Below, piece after piece: positions 1,604-56,913 of a DNA stretch of 64,000 nucleotides; position 1 is the stretch's first letter, and every line of letters begins with the position of its first letter. Below the pieces are notes generated by a model that saw only the letters and a list, made by a program, of their open reading frames with translations, searched no databases and was not told the origin of the DNA. A program made the position numbers and the translations under genes. Source of the DNA: Candidatus Kapaibacterium sp. (GTDB lineage Bacteria; Bacteroidota; Ignavibacteria; Kapaibacteriales; UBA2268); assembly GCA_938031175.1 (NCBI GenBank), contig CALHGZ010000008.1, positions 124,001 through 188,000 of the forward strand, written 5' to 3'.

Positions 1604-2032
1604 TTATTTGGTTTGAGAGTCTTCATTATTTGTTGTTTTTGTATTGCTTGTTTTGGATGAGCAGCAATTTGATTTTGAACCACAATCCTTTTTACTTGAT
1701 AAATCTTTTGTCGTACCCTTTTCACAGCACTCTGAATCTTTTTTTACAGTGGTTGAATAGCCCAAATCTGCTATCTTCTGAGTAATCTGCTCTTCATTGA
1801 TTTTGGATGGATTGTATGAAACTGTAACAACTTTGTTCTCTAAATTCACATCTGATTTTAAAATACCATCAAGTTTATTCAAACCCTTCTCTATTTTACT
1901 TTTGCATCCACCACAATGTGCATTAGTTTGAATTTGAACTTGCTTAATTGCATCTTCACTGTATGCATTGAAACTTACCAAAGCTAAAAAGAGTACAACT
2001 GATAAAAGTGATTTGAAATAATTTTTATACAT
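1604..2032 (-). CDS. Secreted heavy-metal-associated (HMA) domain protein with Cys-rich tail
   Basis: 142 residues. An N-terminal signal peptide (SLLSVVLFLALVSFNAYS) precedes a single HMA ferredoxin-like domain at about residues 28-98. Its metal-binding loop reads AHCGGCKSK, a CxxC site of the copper/mercury-binding type. The domain is followed by a low-complexity Lys/Ser/Thr tail holding three further Cys clusters (ECC, DCG, NCC), which suggests extra soft-metal binding in the periplasm. GGAGG stands 4 nt before the ATG. Nothing next to it encodes a P-type ATPase, so its partner is elsewhere, although a putative copper receptor locus lies near 51-53.5 kb. Binding of Cu, Hg or another soft metal is inferred from the CxxC loop only. 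Confidence 0.8.
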   Translation of the reverse strand: MYKNYFKSLLSVVLFLALVSFNAYSEDAIKQVQIQTNAHCGGCKSKIEKGLNKLDGILKSDVNLENKVVTVSYNPSKINEEQITQKIADLGYSTTVKKDSECCEKGTTKDLSSKKDCGSKSNCCSSKTSNTKTTNNEDSQTK

Positions 2033-49519: not shown

Positions 49520-51037
49520 ATGCCAGAATATTTATATACGAAAAACCGAAATCGAATATATCCAAGTCCCTCAAAATTGGCAAAGGCAATAAGTCATTAT
49601 AAATGGTTGATGCCAACTCACTTGAAGTTGATTGAAAATACATTGATACTGCTGACAAAGAGAAAAATAAGAAAATTAATTGTTAATCTTCCACCAAGGC
49701 ATGGCAAGTCCGAACTCATATCCAAATTTTTCCCATTATGGTATTTATGTCATTATCCAAATCATCGGATTATGCTAATTTCCTATAATGCAAGCTTTGC
49801 AAAATATTGGTCTCGAATCATAAGAGATTTAATTTCTGAATTTTCGGGTACAATTCTAAATATTTCACTTTCAAAGATGCATAAATCCTCGGAATCGTTC
49901 GCTTTAAGCAACGCAAAAGGCAGTTTATATGCCATTGGAGCAGGAGGTTCTATAACGGGTAGAGGTGCAGATTTGATCATCATAGATGATCCGATTAAAA
50001 ACGATACACAGGCGAATAGTGCATATTTCCGTGATAAAATCTGGGATTGGTTCAATTCAACAGTATTCACAAGATTAGAACCGAATGGTATTATAATTTT
50101 AGTAATGACACGCTGGAATGAAGATGATGTTTGCGGTAGATTAATAAAAAATCGCCTCACCATTGAATTAAATTATCCGGGTCTTATTCGAAAATGTAAT
50201 TTAGCTGAGTATAAATTAGATTCAAAAATGAAATGGTGCTTAATCAAAATTCCAGCATTAGCAAATGAAAATGATATTCTTCAGAGGGAAAAAGGAGATG
50301 AACTATGGCCTGAAAGGTTCGATAAAGAAAAATTATCCGAAATCAAAAGCCAGATCGGTAATTATTGGTTTTCTGCTTTATACCAGCAGGAACCTATGCC
50401 ACTAGGTAAAGGGATCTTCGAACGTAAATATTTCAAGTATTTCGATATTTATCAAGAATACTACAAAATATACAACGAAAACGGAAAAATAGAACTAAGA
50501 CTAAAAGAAAATTGCAGTTATTTTATAACTGTAGATTTAGCAATCAGCGAAAAAGATTTATCCGACTACACGGTTTTCATTATCTCAGCATTAACAGAAA
50601 AAAAGGAAATTTTGATAATTGATGTAATAAGAACAAGAATAAAAGCTCACGAACATTTGGCAATGTTAAAAAAATTAGCAAAACAATGGTCACCTGCATT
50701 AATTGGCATAGAGTCAGTTCAATACCAAACTTCACTTGTACAATCCGCTTTATTCGAAGGCTTGCACGTCAAAGCCCTAAGACCAGATAAAGATAAAATT
50801 AGCCGGGCAATAGCAATTTCAGCAAAAGTTGAAGTCGGTATGGTATATTTTAGACAAAATGCTAATTGGCTATCTGAATTTGAAAGTGAATTAACTGAAT
50901 TCCCCGATGGGAAATACGATGATCAGGTTGATGCATTCGCATACATCGCAAAAATCCTCGAGTATTTTTCGGATAATAAACCCGCTTCAACCTGTTTAAC
51001 AAGTTACTCTTTTAAAAATACATTATCAAAATTTTGA
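49520..51037 (+). CDS. Orphan phage/GTA-type large terminase (TerL)
   Basis: 505 residues. The ATPase half has Walker A VNLPPRHGKSEL (K63), a coupling segment MTRWNEDDVCGRL and Walker B LIIIDDP (D156, D157). The nuclease half has the three acidic clusters intact: VDLAIS (D339), GIES (E398) and DDQVDAFAY (D467, D468, D471). The join FSALYQQEPMPLGKGIF is typical of terminases of prophages and gene transfer agents. No small terminase, portal, capsid or tail gene is next to it, and base composition matches the neighbours. It is either a lone remnant kept intact or a domesticated packaging-type motor nuclease. Confidence 0.85.
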   Translation: MPEYLYTKNRNRIYPSPSKLAKAISHYKWLMPTHLKLIENTLILLTKRKIRKLIVNLPPRHGKSELISKFFPLWYLCHYPNHRIMLISYNASFAKYWSRIIRDLISEFSGTILNISLSKMHKSSESFALSNAKGSLYAIGAGGSITGRGADLIIIDDPIKNDTQANSAYFRDKIWDWFNSTVFTRLEPNGIIILVMTRWNEDDVCGRLIKNRLTIELNYPGLIRKCNLAEYKLDSKMKWCLIKIPALANENDILQREKGDELWPERFDKEKLSEIKSQIGNYWFSALYQQEPMPLGKGIFERKYFKYFDIYQEYYKIYNENGKIELRLKENCSYFITVDLAISEKDLSDYTVFIISALTEKKEILIIDVIRTRIKAHEHLAMLKKLAKQWSPALIGIESVQYQTSLVQSALFEGLHVKALRPDKDKISRAIAISAKVEVGMVYFRQNANWLSEFESELTEFPDGKYDDQVDAFAYIAKILEYFSDNKPASTCLTSYSFKNTLSKF

Positions 51038-51085: not shown

Positions 51086-52960
51086 TTAAAATCCCTTATC
51101 TATCATTATTCTGAAGAAAATGGATCTGCCTGGCTCAAAGACTCGGGTACCAGCTGAGTATGGATCCCGTGCAGTTGATAAATATCGGCTAAATCTATGA
51201 TTTAATAGATTATCGACACCAAAAACAAATCTTAAGGGATTAAATTCATAATCAATAGCAAGTCCTAAAATATTCCAGGACTCAGACTGAATCTCTTTTA
51301 ACTTAGTATCAACCCTAGTTTGAGCATTTTCCCACTGATGATATAAAGTTAATCCAATACCATAAATCTTTGGTAATGACAATGTATTTATAAGCCTCAA
51401 AGGTGCAATTTCCGAGAGTGGCTGATTGTTTTCTCTATTCTCTCCCCACGTAAAATTTAATTGACTTTCAAACCATTCATATTTAATCGCTAAATAAGCA
51501 TTAGCGATAATTGCATCTATATTTTTATAAGTTGTTCTCGCTTTAGGACCTGTAATAGTATCCGCTTCAGTATTAATGTAATTCCAAATGTAATTACCAT
51601 TCAAACCCAACTTAAAATATTCTGTAAAGCTGAAATCAAGCCTTATATTCCCTTTCACGTGTTGTTTCAATTCAGGATTACCAAGCCAGTTCGAATTTTG
51701 TCCCAAGCGACGTATTGATAAGAAAAGCTGTTCAGAAGCCGGAGAAGTGGTTGAAATTTCGCCTGATAAGGCAGCCTCAAAATCACTTGTTAATAAAAAA
51801 TTTCGTGAAAGATTCAATGCACCCACAACAAAAATTCTGTTTTTACTGGCGTTGGGATCATATGCTTTAAAAATTGCAAGTACGGAATCATCGGAAAAAC
51901 TTGAATAAGCAAAACCTAAACGAGCATTGGCATAGAAATAATTAAAATCATAGCCATAATTTCCTGTTGCAATTAATTCTATGACATTGGGTAATGCTTT
52001 ATTATCAATTCTCATGGAATTCATTTTATTCAAAATGTAGTTATCAGCATTCCAATTACGAAAAGTAACATCATAATGCTGTCCGGTAAGTCCGATTACA
52101 AGATTTTTCGCATCAGTTTCCATCTCCATCATATTACTGTTATTTCGCAAACCATTATTCATAAGATGAGATGTATAACTGAAATATAGCTTATTGTTTT
52201 TATATTTCGTAAACCCGCTTAAAAACATAGTTTCTCTTTCATCCATCCTTAAATAAGGAAATAATACTTCACCTCCTCTACTGGCTGTTATACCAACTTC
52301 GAAATTACCAAATGCGTGCCTTAATCCAAACGACAAATAATTAGAGTTAGGAGTAGAAGAATAATTATAAAGTGAATCGTAACCCAAGCCATTAGCATCT
52401 TTATAGGGTTGACCATTAAAATATCGTCCCATAATACCAGTCTTAAACCCTTCTGCTAAAATCTGTACATCATACTCATTTTGCATTAATAAATTTCCAG
52501 ATATTATAGAACGTACTCGAAAGTCTTCGCTTAATTCCTTCCTTTGAAATTCAATTTTACCATATAATGATGAATTCCCGGTACTGGACGTTCTTGCTAA
52601 TTTGAATGCATCAATTTCTACAATATTAACTCGAGTAATTGGTGCATCCATCCTGTTAGGACAGGCACATTTTATTTCTTCACCATCCAAAACAAATGAA
52701 ATATCATTTCGTTTAAATCCTTCTGAATAAAAATCCTGTGTCAAACCAGCACCTCTCCTAATTAAACTCATTCTATCTTTTGAAAAAATTATGGATTGAT
52801 ATTCTGGATTAAATTGATAACTTTGTTGAAAATTAAATTCACGAAAGTTAACTACCTTAACTTCCTGCATTTTATAAATTTTTTGTTTGTCTTCCTGTTC
52901 CGCATATAGAAAAATAATATTCAGAACAAAGACAAATCCTAATATATATGATTTATGCAT
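51086..52960 (-). CDS. TonB-dependent outer-membrane receptor, OprC/NosA-like (putative copper)
   Basis: 624 residues with a signal peptide and, after about residue 40, a plug domain (RRGAGLTQDFYSEGF, ISFVLDGEEI). The rest is a beta-barrel ending in Phe (MIDKGF). Two motifs point to copper. C100-P-N-R-M104 in the plug and H265-L-M267 in the barrel reproduce the CxxxM-HxM arrangement known for the copper channel OprC, with a similar separation. The CPNRMD core is also that of the NosA/OprC family. It is 90 nt downstream of a small Cys-rich gene with an operator-like promoter, which suggests a metal-controlled unit. Copper specificity is inferred from the motifs. Confidence 0.72.
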   Translation of the reverse strand: MHKSYILGFVFVLNIIFLYAEQEDKQKIYKMQEVKVVNFREFNFQQSYQFNPEYQSIIFSKDRMSLIRRGAGLTQDFYSEGFKRNDISFVLDGEEIKCACPNRMDAPITRVNIVEIDAFKLARTSSTGNSSLYGKIEFQRKELSEDFRVRSIISGNLLMQNEYDVQILAEGFKTGIMGRYFNGQPYKDANGLGYDSLYNYSSTPNSNYLSFGLRHAFGNFEVGITASRGGEVLFPYLRMDERETMFLSGFTKYKNNKLYFSYTSHLMNNGLRNNSNMMEMETDAKNLVIGLTGQHYDVTFRNWNADNYILNKMNSMRIDNKALPNVIELIATGNYGYDFNYFYANARLGFAYSSFSDDSVLAIFKAYDPNASKNRIFVVGALNLSRNFLLTSDFEAALSGEISTTSPASEQLFLSIRRLGQNSNWLGNPELKQHVKGNIRLDFSFTEYFKLGLNGNYIWNYINTEADTITGPKARTTYKNIDAIIANAYLAIKYEWFESQLNFTWGENRENNQPLSEIAPLRLINTLSLPKIYGIGLTLYHQWENAQTRVDTKLKEIQSESWNILGLAIDYEFNPLRFVFGVDNLLNHRFSRYLSTARDPYSAGTRVFEPGRSIFFRIMIDKGF

Positions 52961-53050
52961 ACTTTTACACCAAAGATTTATAAAACATATTATTTAAATT
53001 GAAATTATTCCACATAAATAAATTTTATAAAAATTAAAATAGAATTATAC

Positions 53051-53446
53051 TTAGCAGGAATGAAATTCAGGTGGAGGGGTTGGAGGTTCTTTTGAATCTA
53101 TATTCTTAAAATTAAATTCTATTAATTTCAATTTATTATAAAAACGATTCTGAGCAATTAAACTCAGTTTTGGGTCGAAAATTCCTGTTATGTTTTCTTC
53201 AAATTTCAATCTCAATTGTGGTATTTTTTCCTTTGATATATCATTTTCTTCATCTGTTTTTTCCAGATTTGCCTTTAGATGGCACTTTCCCTGACATGTG
53301 TTTATAGGTTTATTTTTTTCATTGCAGAGATTTGTGATAATGTATTTATAATTAATCTTGTACTCAAACCAATAAATAATCCCCCGACTGCTAATAGTCA
53401 ACAATAGAATAATTAATGTAGTACAAAATATCTGATTAGAATTCAT
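53051..53446 (-). CDS. Small membrane-anchored Cys protein (CxGKC), partner of the TonB receptor
   Basis: 131 residues. The N-terminal hydrophobic helix (IFCTTLIILLLTISSRGIIYW) is followed by LCNEKNKPINTCQGKCHLKANL, i.e. C-x10-C-x3-C-H, then a charged helix. The C-terminus ends in PPPEFHSC with His and Cys. Paired Cys and terminal HxC suit thiolate binding of Cu(I) or another soft metal. Proteins with this CxGKC-(H/Y)L pattern occur beside TonB receptors in Bacteroidota, to my knowledge without assigned function. A 9-bp inverted repeat embraces its promoter. It is not a cytochrome (no CxxCH). Confidence 0.7.
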   Translation of the reverse strand: MNSNQIFCTTLIILLLTISSRGIIYWFEYKINYKYIITNLCNEKNKPINTCQGKCHLKANLEKTDEENDISKEKIPQLRLKFEENITGIFDPKLSLIAQNRFYNKLKLIEFNFKNIDSKEPPTPPPEFHSC

Positions 53447-53469: not shown

Positions 53470-53495
53470 TAAATAGGACAAAATTATCCTATTTA
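53470..53495. promoter_or_regulatory. 9-bp inverted repeat (operator) surrounding the -7 box of the CxGKC/TonB locus
   Basis: TAAATAGGA (53470-53478) and TCCTATTTA (53487-53495) are perfect inverted repeats. The 8-nt centre, read on the minus strand, is TAATTTTG, an exact TAnnTTTG -7 box lying 32 nt before the CxGKC gene ATG. A dimeric repressor bound here would directly block RNA polymerase. Regulator identity unknown. Confidence 0.65.
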
Positions 53496-55168: not shown

Positions 55169-55783
55169 TCATTTTTTAAACAAAACTTGTGGTTCAGCTT
55201 TAAAAATTATTGGATGGATTTCGTCGTCGGAGATAAATTTTTGTAACTCTTTAGTATCAGCTGTGATTATATAATCATTTTTTCCTAACTTTTTATAACT
55301 GAGGTTATAACTTCCTTTAGCCAGAATATTTTCAATAGCATCAAAACTTGGTATATAGAGATATAATTGATTCCCTGATATTTCAAATTTTAAGAAAGTG
55401 TGTGAAGGGATTAAAAATGCACAATCAAATCTGTTGGATAAATCAGCTTTAAAAATCTGTTTATAATCTGGCGTTAAGTCTAAATACTTATGTTTATTCA
55501 CATCGCATACAACAGCCTCGAAATATGCTGTATCAATTTCAATTTGATTATTAATACCATATTTTGTTATTAAACTTAAATTATAAAGTCCATCTTCTTC
55601 ATAAACAAATTGCCAAAGCTCAACCCATTCTTTTGCATCTGACTTTTTTACCCAGGACCCGCTTAAAATATCAGTTAGAATTATATTATTTTTATCATAA
55701 ATTGGATACAATGTTCTTATGATGCATCCCACCAATACGAGTGGGATGCAAATAAGAATCATTATTAAATTCAAAATTCTCAT
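55169..55783 (-). CDS. Lipoprotein of unknown function
   Basis: 204 residues with a signal sequence and lipobox LVGC near residue 19. The mature part is beta-rich (SGSWVKKSDAKEWVELWQF, LWQF then YNLSLITKYG), as in lipocalin-like or outer-membrane-associated lipoproteins, but I do not recognise the family. It follows the cytochrome c peroxidase gene by 6 nt and is probably co-transcribed with it. Confidence 0.6.
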   Translation of the reverse strand: MRILNLIMILICIPLVLVGCIIRTLYPIYDKNNIILTDILSGSWVKKSDAKEWVELWQFVYEEDGLYNLSLITKYGINNQIEIDTAYFEAVVCDVNKHKYLDLTPDYKQIFKADLSNRFDCAFLIPSHTFLKFEISGNQLYLYIPSFDAIENILAKGSYNLSYKKLGKNDYIITADTKELQKFISDDEIHPIIFKAEPQVLFKK

Positions 55784-55789
55784 AAATCT

Positions 55790-56821
55790 TTATTTTTTTG
55801 CTTGCTTTCGATTTTCAAGATTTTTGTCTGTAAGAGAATTTAAAAAAGCTACTATGTCTGCTACTTCATTATCAGGAAGTTCCTTGCCCAAATTAAGCCA
55901 AGCCATTTTCTTAACAGCATCTTCTAATTTTTCAACTTTCCCATCGTGAAAATACGGATGTGTCAAAGCAACATTACGAAGCATAGCTACTTTGAACATA
56001 TATTTATCACTTTCGAGCTTAGTAACTTCGTATCTACCTAAATCTTCAGTGTTTTCATAAGGATTTATCAATCCCATTTTTTGATATAATGAGCCTCCTA
56101 ACAATGGACCTGTGTGGCACATAATGCAATTATTGTCAATAAACGATTTCATCCCTTTTTTTTCTTGTACTGTCAAAGCATCGCGGTTTCCGTTAACATA
56201 ATCATCAAATCTACTTTTCGATACGAGCGTTCTTTCGAAAGCAGCTATGGCAACTGCTATATTATGAAATGTAATTGGCTTTTTCACATTAGGGAATGCT
56301 TTATTAAACATTTCTTTATATTCATCAATTGCAGCAATGGTTTTTTCGACGGTTTTTTCATCAGGCATAGCCATTTCGAGTGGATTTAATATTGGACCTT
56401 TTGCTTGTTCAACTAAATCAGGCGAACGTCCATCCCAAAACTGAGCAAATTGGAAACCTGCATTAAATACTGTTGGAGAGTTTCTCGTTCCAATTTTGCC
56501 TTCAATAGCACCGGGTGAAAGAGGCTTATTATCAACACCAGCCATTCCATTTGTTATATCGTGGCAAGTATTGCAAGACTGGGTATTATTAACAGAAAGT
56601 TTTGTTTCGAAATATAATTTCTTACCAAGTTCGATTAAAGCTTCTGTATCATTTTCGCTTCCCGGCATTTTATCTGGTAAGGCTCCAAACAATTGCTTGG
56701 CTCTATCATATAAGGTTTGTTCTTCGACTGGTGTTAATTGCGTTTTTTGTTCATCATCTTGTTTACCACCGCAAGATATTAAAAAGGTCACCATTAATGT
56801 AAATAACAATTTTTGTTTCAT
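55790..56821 (-). CDS. Diheme cytochrome c peroxidase (lipoprotein form)
   Basis: 343 residues. Two haem-binding motifs are present, CNTCHD in the N-terminal half and CIMCHTG in the C-terminal half, with DGRSPDLVEQA between them and MLRNVALTHPYFHDGKVEKLEDAV later. This is the CcpA/MauG-type layout. It reduces hydrogen peroxide with electrons from cytochrome c in the periplasm. The start MKQKLLFTLMVTFLISC gives a signal and a lipobox (LISC), so it is likely membrane-tethered. A longer in-frame start lacks this ideal signal. Confidence 0.9.
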   Translation of the reverse strand: MKQKLLFTLMVTFLISCGGKQDDEQKTQLTPVEEQTLYDRAKQLFGALPDKMPGSENDTEALIELGKKLYFETKLSVNNTQSCNTCHDITNGMAGVDNKPLSPGAIEGKIGTRNSPTVFNAGFQFAQFWDGRSPDLVEQAKGPILNPLEMAMPDEKTVEKTIAAIDEYKEMFNKAFPNVKKPITFHNIAVAIAAFERTLVSKSRFDDYVNGNRDALTVQEKKGMKSFIDNNCIMCHTGPLLGGSLYQKMGLINPYENTEDLGRYEVTKLESDKYMFKVAMLRNVALTHPYFHDGKVEKLEDAVKKMAWLNLGKELPDNEVADIVAFLNSLTDKNLENRKQAKK

Positions 56822-56913
56822 TTTTATACTCCGAGACATAAACAAATACAATTAAAATTAGTGAATTTTTTGGAAATTAAAAAAAGTTTTGCCAACAATT
56901 GTATTATACTAAT

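Follow-up and report, generated by a model that had tools for sequence, protein, structure and literature searches.

A predicted OprC-type copper importer behind a putative copper-sensing leader in Candidatus Kapaibacterium sp.

Introduction

To our knowledge, the uptake of copper across the outer membrane is poorly understood. OprC (PDB 6fok, from Pseudomonas aeruginosa; NosA is an ortholog) is described as conserved in Proteobacteria. A TonB-dependent receptor gene of Candidatus Kapaibacterium sp. that appears to carry both halves of an OprC copper site therefore raises two questions: whether it encodes a copper importer so far from that group, and what governs its expression.

The window is the whole 64,000-nt stretch that was analysed, positions 124,001-188,000 of contig CALHGZ010000008.1 (assembly GCA_938031175.1). 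An earlier assignment of this DNA to a flagellated organism of the FCB lineage agrees with FliF-, FliG- and FliI-like ORFs in the window and with nearest named relatives among Candidatus Kapabacteria. We consider it likely, taking the account as a whole, that the locus encodes an OprC-type copper importer behind a copper-sensing leader.

Results

The receptor gene and its motifs

In the ORF listing of the window the receptor ORF lies on the minus strand, with its ATG at 52960; a plus-strand reading of 51086-52960 is ruled out, since stops fall throughout and leave no ORF. The strand was absent from the original prediction, which also overlooked the leader-like gene upstream. The receptor features are as follows.

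51086..52960 (-), predicted OprC-type TonB-dependent receptor, 624 aa (ORF, PDB, NCBIfam, model, structure searches)
52901..52960 (-), probable signal peptide, residues 1-20 (model helix H2-18, and by eye from the sequence)
52850..52864 (-), putative TonB-box-like EVKVV, residues 33-37 (by eye)
52649..52663 (-), C100-P-N-R-M104, plug half of the putative copper site, equivalent to OprC C143/M147 (invariant, 58 homologues)
52244..52246 (-), M239, equivalent to OprC M286 of the methionine track, a ligand of silver site Ag2 (invariant, 58/58)
52160..52168 (-), H265-L-M267, barrel half of the putative copper site, equivalent to OprC H323/M325 (invariant, 58 homologues)
52121..52123 (-), M280, aligning near OprC M341-M343 of the methionine track (47/58 homologues)

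The two motifs are present exactly as first reported, 165 residues apart, and the receptor contains a single CxxxM and a single HxM. With only 2 Cys, 15 Met and 7 His in the protein, chance would supply about 0.05 CxxxM and 0.17 HxM. The copper ligands of OprC are C143, M147, H323 and M325, and M286 is a ligand of its secondary site Ag2, occupied by silver as a Cu(I) proxy (PMC8610252); the spacing of about 180 residues given for OprC in the original prediction is correct, C143 and H323 being 180 apart (PMC8610252). A Pfam scan of the receptor gave nothing above threshold, neither plug nor barrel.

Conservation in relatives

Plain protein similarity, applied with no motif selection, found four relatives, and C100, M104, H265 and M267 are invariant in all four. 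When 84,980 species genomes were scanned by motif plus tblastn, 111 relatives were found, from which 80 loci were kept (labels L0xx). Each had been selected through a single motif, CxxxM or HxM, so that what tells is retention of its partner; all 80 show the pair except L043, which is frameshifted and lacks it in the frame read. The full set of C100, M104, H265, M267 and M239 is invariant across the 58 aligned homologues, the most distant of which has 18% identity, and makes up five of only 14 invariant columns in that alignment. M239 was in neither search pattern, so its invariance is independent of how the loci were selected. The original prediction had allowed that the closest homologues might turn out to lack the four residues; all of them keep the set.

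The family tree has two deep clades. The compact clade (about 620 residues, with ligand halves mostly 165-169 apart) holds the window receptor together with Kapabacteria, Ignavibacteria, some Bacteroidota, WOR-3 and others, while the clade of longer receptors holds Aquificota, Gammaproteobacteria and most of the Bacteroidota rows. The one NCBIfam model that matches all 58 homologues is TIGR01778 ('TonB-dependent copper receptor', an equivalog), which the window receptor matches at 60.4 bits, short of the curated cut-off of 472. Because it misses this cut-off and falls in a separate compact clade, the receptor is classed by sequence as an OprC-type homologue on a deep branch of its own, not as an OprC/NosA ortholog. 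The proposed OprC/NosA-type importer is supported, OprC being the nearest relative in sequence as well as in fold and the ligands being invariant, with the qualification that it is not an ortholog by the curated cut-off.

Match to OprC by profile and by fold

A single-sequence search of the PDB with the receptor returned OprC as the only relevant match (E 1.6e-5), with ACPNRMDAP identical in the two proteins and YxxHxM weakly aligned. With a profile of the 58 homologues OprC was the top PDB match at E 3.5e-91, haem receptors standing well behind (the next match was PhuR, 1.4e-38), and in this alignment C100, M104, H265 and M267 fall column for column on C143, M147, H323 and M325.

The AlphaFold2 model of the receptor, built with the family alignment, is confident (pLDDT 89.6, pTM 0.87). 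It begins with helix H2-18, followed by a low-confidence linker at 21-45, and places H265-L-M267 within barrel strand E256-268. OprC chains were its best fold match in both structure searches (at best Z 35.3 over 552 residues at 2.9 A, with about 17% identity over the whole structure).

Substrate of the receptor

From the sequence, its conservation and the fold match, all of which are direct observations, we infer copper as the substrate and TonB as the source of transport energy; that the receptor has an OprC-type copper site and serves as an importer is, in our judgement, very likely. The structural neighbours that follow OprC (Z 34.2-35.3) are ZnuD and haem receptors (29.7-32.2), which would suit a receptor that takes up a siderophore, haem or a soft ion other than copper (silver, for example, or the zinc of ZnuD), with CxxxM and HxM present by coincidence. 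This we regard as very improbable, given four invariant residues that are collinear with OprC and kept across two deep clades, a genome that needs copper for NosZ and a haem-copper oxidase, and leaders of the same family (see below) that stand before SCO1 and MbnP genes. Import of a copper chelate (a chalkophore, or a methanobactin-like compound) instead of the naked ion has somewhat more to recommend it, though it too is improbable. TonB receptors for chelated copper exist, namely CrtA and MbnT (PMC12914433), and the low overall identity to OprC would leave room for such a cargo. The window receptor is compact, however, and has an invariant C/M/H/M ligand set of the naked-ion kind plus the invariant track position M239, whereas neither Cys nor Met is conserved among CrtA orthologs (PMC12914433). 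Naked copper remains our preferred substrate.

The organism's own genome encodes a nitrous-oxide reductase (NosZ, 963.8 bits) and also the haem-copper oxidase subunit COX1. The window itself has, at 1604-2032 (-), a secreted protein with a heavy-metal-associated domain (HMA, 61.7 bits) and a Cys-rich tail, CC..CGSKSNCCSSK, which is possibly a periplasmic copper chaperone. NosZ, the oxidase and the HMA protein fit an analogy with NosA without proving it.

The upstream ORF and its family

On the same strand, 90 nt upstream of the receptor, lies a short ORF. Its product has a hydrophobic helix at the N-terminus, followed by C41 and C51QGKC55, and ends in PPTPPPEFHSC.

53051..53446 (-), 131-aa ORF upstream of the receptor, small and exported, probably a copper-sensing leader (arrest) peptide (ORF, family comparison)
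53282..53326 (-), C41 ... C51-x-x-x-C55, three invariant Cys, putative sensor (leader alignment)
53069..53086 (-), PPTPPP, residues 121-126, putative ribosome-stalling site (leader alignment, spacing)
52961..53050 (-), 90-nt AU-rich gap from leader ORF to receptor, with no unusually stable structure and no terminator-like site

The ORF matched nothing in Pfam or NCBIfam, and a literature search by motif on CxGKC proteins found no relevant paper. Its family is common: of 395 genomes sampled across the phylum, 158 have a member. Beyond the window, 20 of the fetched loci have an equivalent ORF ahead of the receptor. In the FCB subclade to which the window receptor belongs, 15 of the 20 rows have the leader immediately before the receptor gene; some members of the clade are without it (L029, L030, L032 and L034). 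The arrangement recurs in a distant clade of Flavobacteriia and Cytophagales.

Very little of the leader is conserved. Only C41, C51, C55, P125 and P126 are invariant in a 19-row alignment. When leaders were selected solely on position and the Cys motif, 20 of the 21 had PP at most 9 residues from the stop (the exception, L091, has the Cys motif without PP); as a control, among 717 other ORFs, each 200 aa or longer, 17 have PP in the last 12 residues. CxxxC and PP are separated by 62-73 residues (mean 67.8, s.d. 2.6) in 48 leaders, 28 of which were added with a PP filter, and the residues between are not conserved.

A wider set of 30 leader loci was also collected, ten representatives of which were scanned with Pfam. 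The next gene in nearly all 30 encodes an OprC-like or other TonB receptor, or a protein of the SCO1/SenC, MbnP, YtkA-like or Phenol_MetA_deg family; the 30 loci were the top scorers, which tilts them towards receptor neighbours.

We think the upstream ORF is probably a putative leader of the copper-responsive arrest type. Its hydrophobic helix and three cysteines would equally suit a working membrane-anchored copper binder of the periplasm, such as a chaperone for the cargo of the receptor, and occurrence in so many genomes speaks for a working protein as well. We nevertheless hold that reading to be unlikely, though it deserves to be kept in mind. Between CxxxC and PP almost nothing but length is conserved, the leader model has no confident fold past its N-terminal helices (pTM 0.27), a PPP at the extreme C-terminus is hard to explain in a folded protein, and a homologous family, described next, drops the cysteines yet keeps both PPP and the spacing.

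A relative without the cysteines

In 18 loci labelled Bacteroidales or Chlorobiota an exported ORF ahead of the receptor has no cysteine motif (L064, L068, L069, L072-L077, L079, L081, L083-L085, L087, L088, L090 and L092). In place of CxxxC it has GDIxYLxALIxR, 65-69 residues before a C-terminal PPP. Profile comparison shows it to be homologous to the Cys leader family (probability 96.7%, E 3.5e-10), with the Cys motif aligned to GDIxYL. The receptors behind it form one clade and keep the full set of copper ligands. These relatives offer a natural control for the role of the cysteines.

Non-coding sequence around the leader

We found no intrinsic terminator in the gap between leader and receptor, and an Rfam scan of the locus gave no match. 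A hairpin that would hide the receptor start was looked for at the window locus and not found (z -0.07 and -0.7; duplex p 0.6). In L019-L023 and L036 the leader's final codons are complementary to the Shine-Dalgarno sequence of the receptor gene and pair with it, as in the CutF model (for example AACCUCCG/CGGAGGUU in L023). Such pairing is absent from the window locus and its two nearest relatives, L017 and L018; it reaches p < 0.05 in 16 of 64 leader loci, several of them closely related to each other.

One further element lies upstream of the leader ORF.

53470..53495 (-), 26-bp inverted repeat TAAATAGGA-N8-TCCTATTTA, over a TAnnTTTG promoter-like box

Its core is GGA-N8-TCC with AT-rich flanks. 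The repeat is possibly an operator, if a weak one. As a conserved operator it was rejected: the core was found in 3 of 48 upstream regions (0.8 expected), those of the window, L017 and L019.

Other genes in the window

A phage-type terminase large subunit (Terminase_6N/6C) is encoded at 49520-51037 (+), convergent with the receptor gene; the ORF list of the window shows no obvious phage neighbours for it. At 55790-56851 (-) is a di-haem cytochrome c peroxidase (CCP_MauG) whose MbnH-like NCBIfam match falls below cut-off, adjoined by an unannotated lipoprotein-like ORF at 55169-55783 (-).

Discussion

Proposed mechanism

At the cell surface, copper would be passed by methionines (M239 and M280, by alignment) to a buried site to which the plug contributes C100 and M104 and the barrel H265 and M267. 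TonB would then pull the plug, releasing copper to the periplasm. This copper probably serves the nitrous-oxide reductase and the haem-copper oxidase of the cell.

Gene order and the fixed leader spacing are observed directly; the operon, the stalling and the direction of control are what we infer. The receptor gene would be second in a probable two-gene operon whose first gene most likely encodes a copper-sensing leader and not a working protein. The nascent leader would be exported, so that its three cysteines come out across the membrane with some 67 residues still to be translated before PPP. Copper bound at these cysteines would alter ribosome stalling and with it expression of the importer, which plentiful copper would probably turn down.

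Extending this beyond the window, we are somewhat inclined to think that importers across Bacteroidota, Ignavibacteria and Kapabacteria are run by a copper sensor that acts as a nascent chain and belongs to a family unrelated to DUF2946, with three cysteines set about 67 residues from the terminal PPP and perhaps just outside the translocon at the stall. The Bacteroidales leader would then have lost its cysteines (CxGKCxL to GDIxYLxAL) and kept length and PPP, and must sense something else or act without metal.

The four ligands and one track methionine of an OprC-type site occur in Kapabacteria, Ignavibacteria, WOR-3, Aquificota and Bacteroidota, a far wider spread than the Proteobacteria. 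The receptor family amounts to a natural mutational series around the predicted copper site, and the leader family makes control of copper import without a transcription factor a testable hypothesis.

Comparison with known systems

OprC. The window receptor resembles OprC in fold, in being matched to it first in the PDB, in the aligned positions of its two motifs (CxxxM in the plug, HxM on a strand of the barrel), and in retaining the equivalent of M286 and, judging by M280, apparently part of the M338-M343 track. It differs in length (624 versus 723 residues), in the distance between ligand halves (165 versus 180), in its low identity (about 17%), in scoring far under the TIGR01778 cut-off, and in having a leader gene from another family.

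CruR. CruR is a leader ORF that responds to copper and lies ahead of a copper receptor gene, and ORFs of its type precede OprC-type receptors in Proteobacteria (PMC9426467); its arrest at RAPP has been demonstrated in vitro (PMC12992588). Our leader is likewise a short exported ORF with a Cys pair, a C-terminal proline motif of arrest type, a fixed spacing between them and a copper receptor gene downstream. It has CxxxC and a third Cys where CruR/DUF2946 has CxxC, PPP or xPP instead of RAPP, and a spacing of 62-73 as against 40-49 residues, a ruler about 20 residues longer. DUF2946 (PF11162) was rejected as its family, there being no Pfam match and an hhalign probability of 0.1% against seven DUF2946 proteins. 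Nor was DUF2946 found in the genomes holding the distant receptors L037, L056, L063, L065, L066, L078 and L086.

CutF. CutF of Rhodobacter capsulatus has CxxxC and a C-terminal proline motif (PMC9973294). Proteins of this architecture are shorter than about 150 aa, with a Sec-type N-terminus, CxxxC, PP in the last 15 residues and a copper gene downstream on the same strand. The window leader shares these features, with 131 aa, an exported N-terminus (judged from sequence and model), PPTPPP at 121-126 and the receptor 90 nt downstream (limit 1000). The CutF stem-loop that blocks the Shine-Dalgarno sequence is seen in relatives from Ignavibacteria and is absent at the window locus. List D of CutF-like proteins contains many from Bacteroidota, with TonB-like proteins among the frequent neighbours (PMC9973294), and relatives of our leader may already be within it; because such proteins had been listed in silico, the general kind to which the leader belongs is already known.
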